DNA of 64,000 nucleotides from assembly GCF_000498475.1 (NCBI RefSeq), contig NZ_AVBI01000001.1, positions 62,001-126,000 of the forward strand, in the 5' to 3' direction. The number at the start of each line of letters is the position of its first letter. Position 1 is the stretch's first letter. Below are positions 7,588 through 13,671 of this stretch, piece after piece. This stretch comes from Flavobacterium cauense R2A-7. Its GTDB lineage: Bacteria > Bacteroidota > Bacteroidia > Flavobacteriales > Flavobacteriaceae. A program made the position numbers and the translations under genes. A model generated the notes under the pieces. It searched no databases. It worked only from the letters and a program-made list of their open reading frames with translations, and had not been told where the DNA came from.

Positions 7588-10067
7588 TAGAAATAGAATC
7601 CGAATGACCCTTTAACTCCGAATTTATTGGCATCCGGCAAATTCAGATAACTGCCTCTCCAGCAGAAATCCAATCGAAAACATTTGAAAATATTCCCCAC
7701 TCCCGCGTGGTATTCCCAATATCCGTTTACCGGAGCACGGTATTCCAATCCGGAAGCATTAAGTGCAATATTTTGATCCGAAACAGAACCATACACTCCT
7801 TTTACACCAACAATTTCCCTCCAATTCAATTTTCGCAACAACGGTACTCTTGAAAACAAGCGGCCGTTAAAATGATGTTCTAAGTGAATCGAAGCGTATT
7901 CATCGGCAACGAATTCATAATAATTCATCAGGTTGTACGTGTTTTCAATCTGGAAATACGATTGGTTTCCGGGAATAACCCCCATCAAGCCCAACGGTAC
8001 TTTTCCGAAAATCTTACCGGTTTCAAAGGTTGGAAACAAGCGCCCGAAGCCACCGATCAATATTGGATGACGGTAATAGAACTGTAATTTCTGATACGAG
8101 AAATCACTGTCAAAAACCCCTTTCATGCCATGACTGTAATTCACAAAAACCCTTGGGAAATTATAATCCACCACCATTCGTTCCACTCCATGACCTACTG
8201 TTTTTCGTTTCGGGGTATAATCCACCATTAAATTAATATCGGCTTGTTTGACCTGACTCTGAATTCCTCCGTTAGCATCAAAATAATCCAGACTGAATTT
8301 TGACCAAGCCGATTTCAACGTACGATACGTTAAACCTGTCTGAATTGTCAGGTTTTTTACCGGCTCCATCTGTAGGGAAAGCATCGATAAATTAATCGAT
8401 GAAAGTTTGTCGTTATTTCCGCTTGAAAACAAAGTACTTGAAGCAAAACTTCTTCCCAAGACATCGTTGGTAGCCGTCAAACTCACTCCCAACTGTTCGA
8501 TATCCCTTCTGTTTCCGCCCGAAAGAATCAAACGGTTTTTCTTATTTAGAAGCCATTTTCCGGAAATGCCGTATTTAAACTGATGATCGTTAAAGCCGTA
8601 AGCCGTATAGCCTTCGATACGCCACATATCATTGGACCCGAAATAGGTTCTTCCACCCGCGCGCAAACGCATTCCTTCTACATTATTGTAGCCGTAAGAG
8701 GAAAATATCGGCCCGTAGTCCATCTTTAATTTCGGAATTTCGATGTAACCACTGGCTAAAATAGTCGCAACATTATAGATTCGTTTGAATTTCGGAATCG
8801 TGTTTAAAGTATCTAAAAGTCCGTAAACACTTTTCTCGTTTTTATTCAGGTTTTCAAAGCGGTTTTCCTCCCAAAATTCATCGGTTTTATTATACGCTTC
8901 GCTGTCATAATTGTCTACTTCCTGTTTGTAGAATTTATCATCTTTAGGAATATTGAATTTATGATTTCGCACTAAAGTGGTACGCTTTCCGTAAACTCCT
9001 TTTGATTTTTCTTTTTTGGAGAAACTGAAATCCGACATCATGTGATCGCGTTTCAACAGGAACACCGAATCGTTCAATACCTCAAATTCCTGTTCGATAT
9101 AAATTTCCTTTACCCAGTTGATGTTGGCACTTTTGCTGGCTTCCATGTTGATTTTCTTGATGGCCCATGTAGAATCATTTACCCAAAAATCCCCTTTAAA
9201 AGTCAGCTCGTTTTTTCTTCTCGGATAGTAAATAATATTGTAACACCATTTGTTGTCGATATAAGCACTGTCGGACAACACGTAATTGTATACATTGATT
9301 CCCGTGCGCGATAACGGACTCACGAAATCCTTATCGAAGAACTTCAGGTAATTGTTGTAAATATCGTAATCGGCATACAAATCTTTGATAAAAGTACTCA
9401 CACCATCGCCGGTACCTAAGCCCGAATTTTTATTCGCTTTTACGATTTCTTTCTTTTTCCCGTTAGTATTATCGGCGTAGACTTCACTCAACGTTTCATT
9501 GATAAAAATAGGCAGAAAGGCTTTCCCGGTTACTCTGGAGGTATCGATTCGGTCCCAGATAAATTCCATTCCTTTGAAAATCTTATTGGCTTTGAAAGCA
9601 CTGTCGATGGAATTCAGGTCAAATTCTACTTTTTCGTATTTATCGTATTGGTACTGATTGAACATATTCAGTCCGTTTTTCTTTTTACGCGCCCATATTT
9701 TTCGGAGAATATCAATGGCCGGATTGTTCTTTTTGGAGGTTTTCCCGGTGTAAATTTTCACTTCCTGAAGCTGATTATCCGGTTTGATCTGAATTTTCAT
9801 TTCCAAATCCACCGCTTTTACAAGCGTAATTTCCACGGCTTTATATCCTACAAACGAAGCCACTAACGTTTTATATGTTTTATCCGATTGCAGGTAAAAA
9901 CGTCCGTTCTCATCGGAAACCACACCTTCGGTAGAACCTTTAAAATACACGTTGGCATACCCCATCGGCTGGTTGTTTTCATCATAAACCACCCCGCCCA
10001 CTTTGGTTTGCGCCATCATGTTCACAAATGATAAAACGAAACTTAAAAACAGAAATAACTTCTTCAT
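7587..10067 (-). CDS. DUF5686/carboxypeptidase-regulatory-like outer-membrane protein
   Basis: 826 residues. Signal peptide (1-19, ends MMAQ), then a carboxypeptidase-regulatory-like beta-sandwich (about 20-105: TKVGGVVYDENNQPMGYANV), as at the start of SusC-like receptors. The rest matches the Bacteroidota family DUF5686, predicted to form an outer-membrane barrel: alternating polar/apolar strands, ending in a terminal aromatic (GSFGFYF). The role is unknown. It lacks a recognisable TonB plug domain, so I do not call it a TonB-dependent receptor. It starts just after the pdhB terminator and overlaps the downstream glycosylase gene. Confidence 0.85.
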   Translation of the reverse strand: MKKLFLFLSFVLSFVNMMAQTKVGGVVYDENNQPMGYANVYFKGSTEGVVSDENGRFYLQSDKTYKTLVASFVGYKAVEITLVKAVDLEMKIQIKPDNQLQEVKIYTGKTSKKNNPAIDILRKIWARKKKNGLNMFNQYQYDKYEKVEFDLNSIDSAFKANKIFKGMEFIWDRIDTSRVTGKAFLPIFINETLSEVYADNTNGKKKEIVKANKNSGLGTGDGVSTFIKDLYADYDIYNNYLKFFDKDFVSPLSRTGINVYNYVLSDSAYIDNKWCYNIIYYPRRKNELTFKGDFWVNDSTWAIKKINMEASKSANINWVKEIYIEQEFEVLNDSVFLLKRDHMMSDFSFSKKEKSKGVYGKRTTLVRNHKFNIPKDDKFYKQEVDNYDSEAYNKTDEFWEENRFENLNKNEKSVYGLLDTLNTIPKFKRIYNVATILASGYIEIPKLKMDYGPIFSSYGYNNVEGMRLRAGGRTYFGSNDMWRIEGYTAYGFNDHQFKYGISGKWLLNKKNRLILSGGNRRDIEQLGVSLTATNDVLGRSFASSTLFSSGNNDKLSSINLSMLSLQMEPVKNLTIQTGLTYRTLKSAWSKFSLDYFDANGGIQSQVKQADINLMVDYTPKRKTVGHGVERMVVDYNFPRVFVNYSHGMKGVFDSDFSYQKLQFYYRHPILIGGFGRLFPTFETGKIFGKVPLGLMGVIPGNQSYFQIENTYNLMNYYEFVADEYASIHLEHHFNGRLFSRVPLLRKLNWREIVGVKGVYGSVSDQNIALNASGLEYRAPVNGYWEYHAGVGNIFKCFRLDFCWRGSYLNLPDANKFGVKGSFGFYF

Positions 10068-10074
10068 AGAATTG

Positions 10075-10111
10075 TAAAAAAAAACTTCATCAGCAAATTA
10101 CTGATGAAGTT
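10075..10111 (-). terminator. Intrinsic terminator of pdhB
   Basis: An 11-bp perfect stem (10083-10093, AACTTCATCAG; 10101-10111) with a 7-base loop. On the minus strand it is followed by eight or more T. It ends pdhB transcription immediately before the DUF5686 start codon. Confidence 0.8.
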
Positions 10112-10128
10112 CAAATATAGTCATTTTA

Positions 10129-10160
10129 TTAATTGTCAATTATCAATTGATAATTATCAA
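10129..10160. repeat. AATTGTCAATTATC word-repeat spacer
   Basis: About 32 bases made almost only of the near-palindromic words AATTGTC, AATTATC and AATTGAT. A closely similar spacer lies between fbaA and accD (24631-24690). The function is unknown. Confidence 0.6.
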
Positions 10161-11141
10161 TTATTTTTTATACATCACTTTTTTAACCGCCTTGATTACA
10201 TCGTTAGCATTAGGCAACCATTCTTTCAACAAAGTTGGAGAATACGGCGCCGGAGTATCGGCAGTTGTGATTCTTTGTACCGGCGCATCCAAATAATCGA
10301 AGGCTCTTTCCTGAACCATATACGTGATTTCTGAAGCCACCGATGCAAACGGCCAAGCCTCTTCCAAAACCACCAATCTATTTGTTTTTTTCACCGAATT
10401 GATAATCGTTTCGTAATCCATCGGACGAACCGTTCTTAAATCTACGATTTCACAAGAAATACCTTCTTTAGCCAATTCCTCAGCTGCCGCTAACGCTTCT
10501 TTGATGATTTTTCCGAAAGACACAATCGTTACATCGGTTCCTTCGCGTTTGATATCGGCAACTCCTAACGGAATCGTGTAATCGCCTTCCGGCACTTCCC
10601 CTTTATCACCATACATTTGTTCCGATTCCATGAAGATTACCGGATCGTTATCACGGATAGCTGCTTTTAATAATCCTTTAGCATCATATACCGTTGATGG
10701 CACCACTACTTTTAATCCCGGAGTATTTGCAAACCAGTTTTCGAAAGCCTGAGAGTGTGTTGCCCCTAACTGACCAGCCGAAGCTGTCGGTCCGCGGAAC
10801 ACCATTGGCATAGGAAACTGTCCGGCCGACATCTGACGCATTTTTGCCGCGTTATTGATGATCTGGTCGATTCCCACCAACGAGAAATTAAACGTCATGA
10901 ATTCCACAATTGGGCGGCAACCGTTCATCGCTGAACCTACTGCAATTCCGGCGAAACCTAATTCGGCAATTGGGGTATCGATAACTCTTTTTGGTCCGAA
11001 TTCATCCAGCATTCCTTTCGAAGCTTTATAGGCTCCGTTATATTCCGCTACTTCTTCACCCATTAAATATACCGATTCGTCGCGACGCATTTCTTCGCTC
11101 ATCGCCTCACAAACCGCTTCTCTAAACTGTATCGTTCTCAT
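10161..11141 (-). CDS. pdhB: Pyruvate dehydrogenase E1 component, beta subunit
   Basis: About 326 residues from the ATG at 11141. An in-frame TTG lies six codons upstream, but MRTIQFREAVCEAM matches the family start. It is the beta half of the thiamine-diphosphate E1 heterotetramer, which decarboxylates pyruvate and passes the acetyl group to lipoyl-E2. GEEVAEYNGAYKASKG and DTPIAELGFAGIAVGSAM are the TPP-side signatures, and VVLEEAWPFASVASEI is typical of the C-terminal transketolase domain. The alpha and E2 genes are not adjacent, so the complex is encoded at separate loci. The upstream side opens on the 21-bp repeat array. Confidence 0.94.
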   Translation of the reverse strand: MRTIQFREAVCEAMSEEMRRDESVYLMGEEVAEYNGAYKASKGMLDEFGPKRVIDTPIAELGFAGIAVGSAMNGCRPIVEFMTFNFSLVGIDQIINNAAKMRQMSAGQFPMPMVFRGPTASAGQLGATHSQAFENWFANTPGLKVVVPSTVYDAKGLLKAAIRDNDPVIFMESEQMYGDKGEVPEGDYTIPLGVADIKREGTDVTIVSFGKIIKEALAAAEELAKEGISCEIVDLRTVRPMDYETIINSVKKTNRLVVLEEAWPFASVASEITYMVQERAFDYLDAPVQRITTADTPAPYSPTLLKEWLPNANDVIKAVKKVMYKK

Positions 11142-11307
11142 GTATTTTTCTTTATCCAAAAATTATTGAAAGGCAAAAATAAAAATTTTATGTTACTTAT
11201 TAGTTATATGTTAGGGATTAAGGTGAATTTATTTTGTTTTACCATTATAATGTTCGATACAAATTCATTTAACTGCCAAAGTTCCCACTGAAATTTGTTT
11301 CGCCTGT

Positions 11308-11690
11308 GTTCTGCACTGACTTGCCTTTCATCTGCATTGAGCTACTTTTCTTCTGCATCGACCTACTTATCTTCTACATTGACTTGCTTGTCTTCTGCAT
11401 CGACCTACTTCTTGTCTGCATTGCCTCACTTTCCTTCTGCATTGCTTTGCCTTTCTTCCGCATTACCCTTTCGAATTCATTTTCTGTCACGATGCATTCA
11501 TTTTCTGTCACGATGCATTTATTTTTTACCGTATTGCATTCATAACTTACCTTACCGTATTCATTATCTGACTCGGCGCATTCACTACTTGTAGTATCGC
11601 AATCATGATTTGCTTTCCCGCATTCCTTTTCTGGCTCGACGCAATTATAATTTCACCCAACGCACTCTTTTTTTAAACTGTCGCCCTTCT
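11308..11690. repeat. Degenerate tandem array, exact 21-bp period, 18 units
   Basis: GCA-type cores recur at 11313, 11334, 11355, 11376, 11397, 11418, 11439 and 11460. After one 34-base step they recur at 11494, 11515, 11536, 11557, 11578, 11599, 11620, 11641, 11662 and 11683. Apart from that step every spacing is exactly 21 bases although unit sequences diverge strongly. Units 11477-11497 and 11498-11518 are identical. The plus strand is pyrimidine-rich. The array fills the middle of the 743-base gene-free region between divergent pdhB and etfB. The flanks (11142-11307, 11691-11884) are AT-rich with no gene or clear promoter that I can support. Plus frames stay open across the array because 21 is a multiple of three, but no coding signal is seen. 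Confidence 0.9.
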
Positions 11691-11884
11691 ATTCAAAAAA
11701 ACCAAACTTCACCACTGAAAATTCTGCAATCAAATCGCGTTTCAAAACTTCACTTTTGCGTTTAATCAGAATATTTTCGCTATTCCCTGATAATTTCACA
11801 TTTATTATGCGTGCATACTATTTTATTGAAAATATTTCCTTAAATTCGTCCCTCGAAAATAATCAACTTTATAACCTTATAAAA

Positions 11885-12631
11885 ATGAAAATATTAGTTT
11901 GCATCAGCCACGTGCCTGATACTACTTCAAAAATTAACTTCATTAACGGAGATTCGGAATTTGACACTAATGGTGTTCAGTTTGTAATCAACCCAAATGA
12001 TGAGTTCGGTTTAACCAGAGCCATTTGGTTCAAAGAACAACAAGGTGCTAATGTAACTGTGGTAAACGTAGGCGGTACCGATGCAGAAGCAACTTTAAGA
12101 AAAGCGTTAGCCATTGGTGCTGACGAAGCAATCCGCGTAAACGCAAACCCTACTGACGGTTTCTTCGTGGCTAAGCAATTGGCAGAAGTTGTAAAAAACG
12201 GCGGGTACGATTTAGTGATTGCTGGTAAAGAATCGTTAGACTACAACGGTGGAATGGTTCCGGGAATGCTGGCTGCCTTAACAGGAGCAGATTTCGTAAA
12301 CTCTTGTATCGGATTGGACATCAACGGAACAACTGCAAAAGCGGTTCGTGAAATTGACGGTGGTAAAGAAACCATTGCTGCGAACTTACCGTTGGTAATC
12401 GGCGGACAAAAAGGTTTGGTGGAAGAAAAAGACCTTCGCATCCCGAACATGAGAGGTATCATGACGGCCAGAACTAAAGCGTTAACGATTTTAGAACCGG
12501 TTGGAGCGGACAACACTACAAAAGCAGTGAAATTCGAAAAACCGGCAGCAAAATCAGCCGTAAAATTGGTGAACGCGGATAACTTAGACGAATTAATCAA
12601 CTTATTACATAACGAAGCGAAAGTAATTTAA
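11885..12631 (+). CDS. etfB: Electron transfer flavoprotein, beta subunit
   Basis: 248 residues from the ATG at 11885. A longer in-frame start 129 bases upstream adds a non-homologous tail and is rejected, because MKILVCISHVPDTTSKI is the family start. EtfB binds AMP and, with EtfA, carries electrons from acyl-CoA and other dehydrogenases to the quinone pool. NPNDEFGLTRAI, ALAIGADEAIRV and DLVIAGKESLDYNGGMVPGM are characteristic. It sits directly before etfA with a 71-base spacer made of short repeated words. The ETF-quinone oxidoreductase is not in the window. Confidence 0.95.
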   Translation: MKILVCISHVPDTTSKINFINGDSEFDTNGVQFVINPNDEFGLTRAIWFKEQQGANVTVVNVGGTDAEATLRKALAIGADEAIRVNANPTDGFFVAKQLAEVVKNGGYDLVIAGKESLDYNGGMVPGMLAALTGADFVNSCIGLDINGTTAKAVREIDGGKETIAANLPLVIGGQKGLVEEKDLRIPNMRGIMTARTKALTILEPVGADNTTKAVKFEKPAAKSAVKLVNADNLDELINLLHNEAKVI

Positions 12632-12699
12632 TTACGAATTGAAAATTACGAATTACGTTTTTTTCAATCTTTTAAATCTTTCAATTTTTAAATAAAACA
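12632..12699. repeat. Word-repeat spacer between etfB and etfA
   Basis: The spacer holds AATTACGAATTGAAAATTAC and AATTACG words, then a second set (TTCAATC, TTAAATC, TTTCAAT, TTTTAAAT). It is low-complexity, with no ORF or hairpin of note. It resembles the word-repeat spacers near 10.1, 24.6 and 25.7 kb. Confidence 0.5.
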
Positions 12700-12702
12700 A
12701 AT

Positions 12703-13671
12703 ATGTCAATTTTAATATACGCGGAATCCGCAGAAGGAAAATTTAAAAAAGTAGCTTTCGAGTTGGCTTCTTATGCTAAGAAAGTTGCAGAAATGATGGG
12801 AACAACGGTTACAGCCGTTACGGTAAACGCAGGCGATGTTTCCGCTTTATCAAAATACGGAGTAGACAAAGTATTAAAAGTAACTAATGATAAATTAGCG
12901 TCTTTCAATGCCAAAGCTTACGCAGATGTTGTAAAACAGGCGGCTCAGAAAGAAGGAACCAAAGTGGTAATCCTTTCTTCAACAACCGATTCTTTATACT
13001 TAGCGCCACTTGTAGCTGTTGGGTTGAATGCAGGATATGCTTCTAACGTAGTGGCATTACCGGAAAGCACTTCGCCTTTCACTGTAAAAAGAAACGCGTT
13101 CTCTAACAAAGCGTTCAACATTACAGAAGTAACTACCGATGTAAAAGTTTTAGGAATTGCTAAAAATTCTTACGGTGTTTTCGAATCGGCTTCTTCTTTA
13201 ACGGAAGAAGATTTCACACCATCTTTAAACGATGCTGATTTCTCTGTTAAAATCGAATCGGTAGAAAAAGTAACCGGAAAAGTAACCATTGCCGATGCTG
13301 AAATCGTGGTTTCTGCAGGTCGCGGAATGAAAGGCCCTGAAAACTGGGGCATGATTGAAGAATTGGCTTCCGTTCTTGGTGCAGCAACAGCTTGTTCTAA
13401 ACCGGTATCCGATTTAGGATGGAGACCTCACAGCGAACACGTAGGACAAACCGGAAAACCGGTAGCGGCAAACTTATACATTGCCATTGGTATTTCTGGA
13501 GCGATCCAGCACATTGCCGGAATCAACTCTTCTAAAGTAAAAGTGGTTATCAACCCGGATGCTGAAGCACCTTTCTTCAAAGTAGCGGATTACGGAGTTG
13601 TAGGAGATGCTTTCCAAGTTGTTCCGCAACTAATCGAAAAATTAAAAGCTTTTAAAGCAGCGCAGCACTAA
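12703..13671 (+). CDS. etfA: Electron transfer flavoprotein, alpha subunit
   Basis: 322 residues, the normal size. It carries the FAD of the EtfAB heterodimer. The N-terminal domain (about 1-180) is the nucleotide-binding-like half. The C-terminal FAD domain starts near VSAGRGMKGPENWGMIEELA and contains DLGWRPHSEHVGQTGK, YIAIGISGAIQHIAGI and VINPDAEAPFF, the standard FAD-binding run. It is co-directional with etfB and followed by an intrinsic terminator, so etfBA is a two-gene unit. Confidence 0.95.
   Translation: MSILIYAESAEGKFKKVAFELASYAKKVAEMMGTTVTAVTVNAGDVSALSKYGVDKVLKVTNDKLASFNAKAYADVVKQAAQKEGTKVVILSSTTDSLYLAPLVAVGLNAGYASNVVALPESTSPFTVKRNAFSNKAFNITEVTTDVKVLGIAKNSYGVFESASSLTEEDFTPSLNDADFSVKIESVEKVTGKVTIADAEIVVSAGRGMKGPENWGMIEELASVLGAATACSKPVSDLGWRPHSEHVGQTGKPVAANLYIAIGISGAIQHIAGINSSKVKVVINPDAEAPFFKVADYGVVGDAFQVVPQLIEKLKAFKAAQH

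Follow-up and report, generated by a model that had tools for sequence, protein, structure and literature searches.

The array of diverged 21-bp units that separates pdhB from an etfB-like gene in Flavobacterium cauense R2A-7 is very probably a worn, composite member of a class of non-coding bacterial repeats, known from the literature, whose units have a constant length of 20-21 nt. We describe it within a window of 64,000 nucleotides, the whole stretch of DNA that was analysed (contig NZ_AVBI01000001.1, positions 62,001 to 126,000), and positions are those of the window unless another contig or locus is named. The units hold their register within blocks, arrays of the same families recur in the genome, arrays of this kind lie between genes with no preference for gene orientation, and relatives lack the array at this site. 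No codon, curvature or RNA-fold signature accompanies it. The best explanation overall, which we hold with moderate confidence, is that the array belongs to this class and combines turnover of whole units with a constraint that holds the units to one length. Close behind comes the alternative that mutation alone sets the unit size.

A composite array with a 21-bp register

Read on the minus strand, block A has ten core starts (11685, where the core is GGCG, then 11664, 11643 and so on to 11496) and block B has eight (11462, 11441 and so on to 11315). All steps within blocks are 21 bp, and the one exception among the 17 steps of the array is the 34-bp step at the junction. These positions confirm what a first-pass annotation of the window had described, namely 18 cores spaced 21 bp apart in two blocks of 8 and 10 with a single 34-bp step. 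Its wording that the cores are of GCA type applies to 15 of the 18; in the other three the TGC of the minus-strand reading is altered, to GGC at 11685, TAC at 11559 and TGT at 11378. It had also placed every core on one face of the helix. This alignment is valid inside a block and fails across the junction, because 34 bp corresponds to 3.24 turns of 10.5 bp.

The autocorrelation that had been suggested as a check supports the period. The window array has an identity of 0.623 at lag 21, the best of lags 3-129, compared with a mean of 0.300 (sd 0.026, maximum 0.388) at this lag in 2000 first-order Markov resamplings; the best value at any lag in 300 Markov resamplings was 0.42. Taken on its own, block B reaches 0.73 at lag 21 and 0.75 at lag 63, and block A reaches 0.61 at lag 21. 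Units match the consensus of their block at 0.70 in block A and 0.81 in block B. TRF reports 21-bp rows with 0% indels for 11309-11464 and 11475-11525 only, missing most of block A because divergence there is too high.

The pooled units of the array fall into two families, and we therefore regard the window locus as a composite array. Comparing families 1 and 2 by rotation gives 12 of 21 matches, which is equalled by 14% of shuffles and does not support a relation between them.

Table 1. Positions of the array, its neighbouring genes and arrays of the same unit families. G000 is the window's own genome.
Feature	Position	Strand	Description
pdhB	10161..11141	-	Pyruvate dehydrogenase E1 beta; NCBIfam NF008854 and NF006667 above cut-off
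Block B	11295..11462	-	8 diverged 21-bp units; family 1; pooled consensus TGCAGAAGAAAAGTTAGGCGT
Block junction	11463..11475	.	13 bp extra, giving a 34-bp step between cores 11496 and 11462
Block A	11476..11685	-	10 diverged 21-bp units; family 2; pooled consensus TGCGTCGAGGCAAAAAATGAA
Conserved etfB upstream region	11788..11884	+	Outside the array; contains near-palindrome TATGCGTGCATA
etfB-like	11885..12631	+	Electron transfer flavoprotein beta subunit; divergent from pdhB; ETF beta models E ~1e-21 to 1e-22
Family 1 array besides block B	G000 C19:313367-313580		Pooled units
Family 2 arrays besides block A	G000 C12:385281-385452, C19:44432-44666, C19:667886-668099		Pooled units

Related arrays elsewhere in the genome

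A BLAST search of the array region against its own genome returned two further arrays, and a search for five TGCR cores at 21-bp spacing, allowing up to 2 mismatches, located arrays on C6, on C12 and at three places on C19. Period-blind sampling of the same genome added a 21-bp array with a TTGATA core (L299:2930-3084), so that the window genome carries at least six further 21-bp arrays, five of them TGCR-cored and one TTGATA-cored. Four of the five further TGCR-cored arrays belong to the two unit families of the window (Table 1), and with L299 there are several families of the same length in one genome. T, G and C are present in 36, 35 and 33 of the 36 family-2 units and in 18, 18 and 17 of the 18 family-1 units, counts to be read with the knowledge that the units were located by that core. 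L299, in this genome too, carries TTGATA and not TGC.

Among the arrays we found a higher-order repeat of two units. End units agree with the consensus less well than inner units (0.736 vs 0.838), a wear that is perhaps partly set by the score threshold that delimits the arrays. The first-pass annotation had set the array apart from a recently expanded satellite. That distinction is not supported, in that worn edges, a higher-order repeat of two units and the dispersal of arrays from both families are satellite-like behaviour. The flanks of five arrays (a single side for L030; L029 left out) have no mutual similarity at E 1e-3, and plasmids gave no match to the array.

Two other repeats of the genome were seen along the way. 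A dispersed repeat of about 85 bp (L033:4757-4846) adjoins an array, and has many copies in the relatives G009, G011 and G013; window 27189-27250 matches it more weakly. At L302:9366-12540 (G000 C19:409366-412540) lies another repeat family, a cluster of repeats of 23-31 bp in which CTTCGAGAGCCT and CAGGCACC occur.

Distribution and turnover in the genus

A pattern of six TGCR cores spaced 21 bp, with at most 1 mismatch, matches 37 of 299 genomes of the genus, the window's own included. Among the matches listed, unit sequences vary between genomes and are often similar across the loci of one genome; within G010, G244 and G248, different loci carry different units. The reversed control, with RCGT cores, finds 17 of the 299 genomes, including 4 of the 80 used for the period contrast, which indicates that 21-bp arrays are not bound to the TGC core. 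In these 80 genomes, searched alike for each period, arrays of 21 bp occur in 11, of 20 bp in 1 and of 22 bp in 1. We examined loci in 7 of the 11 genomes positive for 21 bp. Two TGCR matches (L060 and L063) are coding and two (L056 and L059) are 7-bp repeats. At the 28 loci with both neighbours called by a simple frame caller, neighbouring genes are tandem in 18, convergent in 6 and divergent in 4, with no preference for a gene orientation. A match in G032 was rejected as a chance 27-bp match within a 171-aa frame.

Unit length is not absolutely fixed. G010 has arrays of 20 bp as well as of 21 bp, and their units are similar (on C1, e.g. at 855290, 1190012 and 2311780), so whole arrays can shift by one base. 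This genome is a natural case of a one-base period change spreading through arrays.

We also surveyed 60 stretches of 20 kb (1.2 Mb) without regard to period, in 8 genomes that are all positive for the TGCR pattern. The non-coding arrays comprise 2 each of period 21, 42, 22 and 23, 6 of period 8 (one or more of them a masked run) and single arrays of 11, 14, 31 and 46; coding-like arrays comprise 3 of period 21, 1 of 20 and 1 of 39. Period 21 and its double lead in this survey, whose sample is small. Beyond the genus, a seven-core scan of bacterial and archaeal genomes, in which 80 of at least 117 loci were listed and sorted by a rough frame test, gave 30 non-coding-like 21-bp arrays, 41 coding-like loci, 8 too close to the end of a stretch and 1 of short period. 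The 30 non-coding-like arrays among those listed are spread over several phyla, in agreement with the published breadth.

Sites turn over between relatives. In G009 no array is seen where the window genome has its C12, C19:313k and C19:668k arrays; for the C19:668k site the highest lag-21 identity reaches 0.50 over 84 bp, like that of unrelated loci. The flanks of the C19:44k site (L031) have no long match in 8 relatives. In G011, an AT-rich 21-bp array of unrelated letters follows an S9-peptidase-like gene (L212:1230-1420; identity 0.70 over 84 bp, with 0 of 1000 shuffles as high). The same gene carries a 21-bp array in the window genome, and the genes on the far side differ between the two genomes. 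The G011 array may be an old array whose letters have been replaced, or it may be a second landing there.

Comparison with known repeat classes

In the available text of PMC8161180, Subirana and Messeguer (IJMS 2021) describe non-coding bacterial tandem repeats with a constant length of 20-21 or 52 nt, whose sequences are variable and species-specific, with several families per genome and short kept motifs. The authors point to two helical turns and propose nucleoid proteins or small RNAs; in print the class is termed enigmatic and has no known function. Judged by that text, the arrays described here agree with the class in having a unit of 20-21 nt whose length is held, variable and genome-specific sequence, several families, non-coding placement and partly conserved sites. 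They may also resemble it in keeping a short motif among the units of one genome, with the qualification that here the units were located by that core. In contrast, the class is worked out for Bacillus in the available text, which mentions Flavobacterium 0 times, and the window locus differs from the class as described there by joining two unit families via a 34-bp step. In literature searches on tandem repeats and minisatellites of Flavobacterium and Bacteroidetes we found no description of these arrays; the parent paper of PMC8161180, a J Bacteriol 2020 survey known to us by citation, may contain them.

Other known repeats are less similar. According to the available text of two reports, repeats of F. 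psychrophilum are likewise tandem and several of them intergenic, but the VNTRs have units of 4-9 nt in a search limited to 4-10 nt (PMC4501049) and the satellite family has a unit of 69 nt (PMC6749651), not 21. BrickBuilt of Porphyromonas gingivalis, a 23-nt minisatellite inside a MITE as far as described in the available part of PMC4596501, also belongs to a member of the Bacteroidota and is dispersed and intergenic, with a tandem unit near two helical turns. However, BrickBuilt has a leader, a tail, terminal inverted repeats and a 23-nt unit in that description, whereas among the five arrays here no shared flanks were found. A MITE of this type was rejected, as a comparison of these flanks with one another at E 1e-3 gave no similarity and no MITE ends were found. 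Iterons of plasmid replication origins are direct repeats about two helical turns apart; they are few, nearly identical and located beside a rep gene, and their likeness to the 21-bp arrays is in spacing only.

Strictness of the register

Of the 341 steps scored across 32 loci, 334 measure 21 bp; 4 are 42 or 63 bp and 3 are off register (29, 35 and 35 bp), with both 35-bp steps found in arrays that carry a 7-bp sub-repeat. L048 and L061 had no seed in this scoring. From the base-change, unit, curvature and fold analyses we left out L056 and L059 (7-bp sub-repeats), L060 and L063 (long frame) and L035, the last because its unit translates to a protein-like heptad; L035 has no long frame around it and its 10 steps are all 21 bp. 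The 27 loci kept contain 340 units with at least 486 independent base changes, counted by column, and 1 off-register step, a tally that leaves out the window's own array with its one 34-bp step in 17. As the first-pass annotation had claimed for the window array, its spacing is kept while bases change; arrays in other genomes of the genus behave alike. Base changes show no overall transition bias (604 transitions vs 628 transversions).

One locus in G010 shows this in a single array. At L044:1494-1871, two kinds of unit follow one another with the 21-bp register unbroken throughout; the shared ending ATC is kept, the TGC core shifts by 2 bp, and about nine units past the scored chain are also in register.

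The loci were picked by a 21-bp seed pattern of six in-register cores, with 178 of the 340 units lying beyond six per locus, and such a seed favours in-register arrays, so that the evidence for a length constraint is good, not clean. In simulations of neutral arrays, 48-65% were without wrong-length units when indels were 2% of substitutions, 13-33% at 5% and 2-8% at 10%; 26 of the 27 observed arrays are free of an off-register step.

These figures bear on the alternative that survives best, a neutral minisatellite in which a mutational process (slippage or template switching in fixed steps) sets the 21 bp, with no binding partner and no selection on phase. We consider this less likely than not, if close behind the reading that we favour. 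Site turnover, worn ends and the two-unit higher-order repeat are what it would lead one to expect, as are the lack of an orientation preference and the lack of curvature, RNA and codon signals reported below. However, changes of unit length are nearly absent despite frequent base changes, and the same length recurs with unrelated units and across several phyla.

RNA folding

A repetitive transcript was among the candidates of the first-pass annotation. That the array gives rise to a repetitive small RNA, like the one suggested for repeats of the 52-nt class, appears quite improbable. The idea draws on the minus-strand fold of window 11300-11700 (z = -2.68, with 0 of 100 shuffles as stable), on two single outliers among the other arrays (L051, z -3.16; L036, z -2.17) and on the RNA-seq signal from 52-nt arrays of B. 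coagulans noted in the available text of PMC8625621. Against this, the plus strand of the same region has z = -0.88, the window blocks folded singly have z between -0.84 and 0.70, and 29 arrays average -0.38 and -0.19 on the two strands, with no general signal. An Rfam search of 10000-13000 gave zero matches up to E = 1.

The pdhB-etfB spacer and DNA curvature

The ETF beta model scores of the etfB-like gene all lie under the curated cut-offs. The array sits between the start-proximal blocks of the two genes, and both blocks are kept in 8 aligned relatives. The block beside the pdhB start (~11160-11190) lies outside the array and is start-proximal sequence kept in relatives. Upstream of etfB, the near-palindrome TATGCGTGCATA (11806-11817) is kept as TATGCRYGCATA in 8 of 8 aligned relatives, the alignment comprising 8 of the 21 relatives that have the pdhB-etfB pair; from its sequence it looks operator-like.

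We compared this spacer in 29 of the 37 relatives with a PdhB match, and 21 of the 29 show the divergent pair. From start codon to start codon the spacer is 743 bp in the window genome and 167-501 bp in these 21 relatives. The nearest relative by PdhB (G009, 99.7%) has a different upstream neighbour at pdhB.

Phased regulatory or curved DNA controlling pdhB and etfBA had been proposed for the array, with absence from relatives named in advance as grounds for dropping the idea. The location between two divergent starts, outside the conserved start-proximal blocks, is in its favour. However, the array is missing from the spacer in 21 of 21 relatives with the divergent pair, none of which has a lag-21 signal there (lowest shuffle fraction 0.085), and sister arrays occur between tandem and convergent genes too, for example on the 3' sides of enolase and ClpB genes in the window genome. 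Control of the two genes by the array is therefore very improbable. Our best reading is that the array is no pdhB/etfBA operator and that the space between the two divergent promoters is one place where its landing was tolerated.

Curvature argues in the same direction. Predicted with wedge parameters, the window array has a curvature of 63.6 degrees vs a window mean of 49.0, which is the 74th percentile of the window and is equalled by 11% of shuffles. Of 27 genus arrays, 14 exceed their shuffles (z above 1.64). Compared with column-permuted units, 29 arrays are average (mean rank 0.507; rank not above 0.05 in 2 of the 29; KS p = 0.90). Column-permuted repeats are equally curved; any 21-bp period yields such curvature. 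We accordingly rejected phased curved DNA, the curvature of the 29 arrays not being above that of repeats of equal period and composition.

Coding tests

That the array is a relic of a heptad-repeat protein gene (21 bp = 7 codons) is hardly credible: several arrays do have an open frame across units and some 21-bp arrays of the genus lie in a long frame (L060, L063), but 32 of 34 loci lie outside long frames, covering frames end near the array edges, no reading frame extends well past the window array, whose blocks contain stops, the three codon phases are conserved to a similar degree (1.39, 1.47 and 1.43 bits), and 20-bp and 22-bp arrays exist, whatever their coding state.

A possible reader of the 21-bp step

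Under the explanation that we favour, membership in the constant-length class with whole-unit turnover and a length constraint, arrays would grow, shrink and homogenise by whole-unit exchange or slippage, and selection would act against any unit of the wrong length, since some factor would be reading the DNA at intervals of two helical turns. The best candidate for this reader would be a putative DNA-coating protein that polymerises in 21-bp steps with a weak sequence demand. We infer a protein coating DNA in two-turn steps from the match to two helical turns, the prevalence of 21 over 20 or 22 bp and the indifference to sequence. That such stepping is what holds the unit length is a tentative proposal, to which we give somewhat less than even weight.

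A more specific version, which we think unlikely, is a candidate nucleoid protein of Flavobacterium and other bacteria that would assemble in strict 21-bp steps and be almost sequence-blind, with the arrays as its nucleation tracks. Selection would then see phase alone, so that 21 bp would be kept while letters are replaced; the unit switch in the G010 array L044 and the G011 array beside the S9-peptidase-like gene could be cases of this.

The genus supplies related genomes that allow occupied sites to be compared with empty ones, and a period of 21 bp with those of 20 and 22 bp. With such genomes available, and with curvature, RNA structure and coding set aside, the idea of a protein that coats DNA in 21-bp steps becomes directly testable by pull-down. 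If the arrays merely reflect a mutational habit, the fixed unit size would still call for an explanation.
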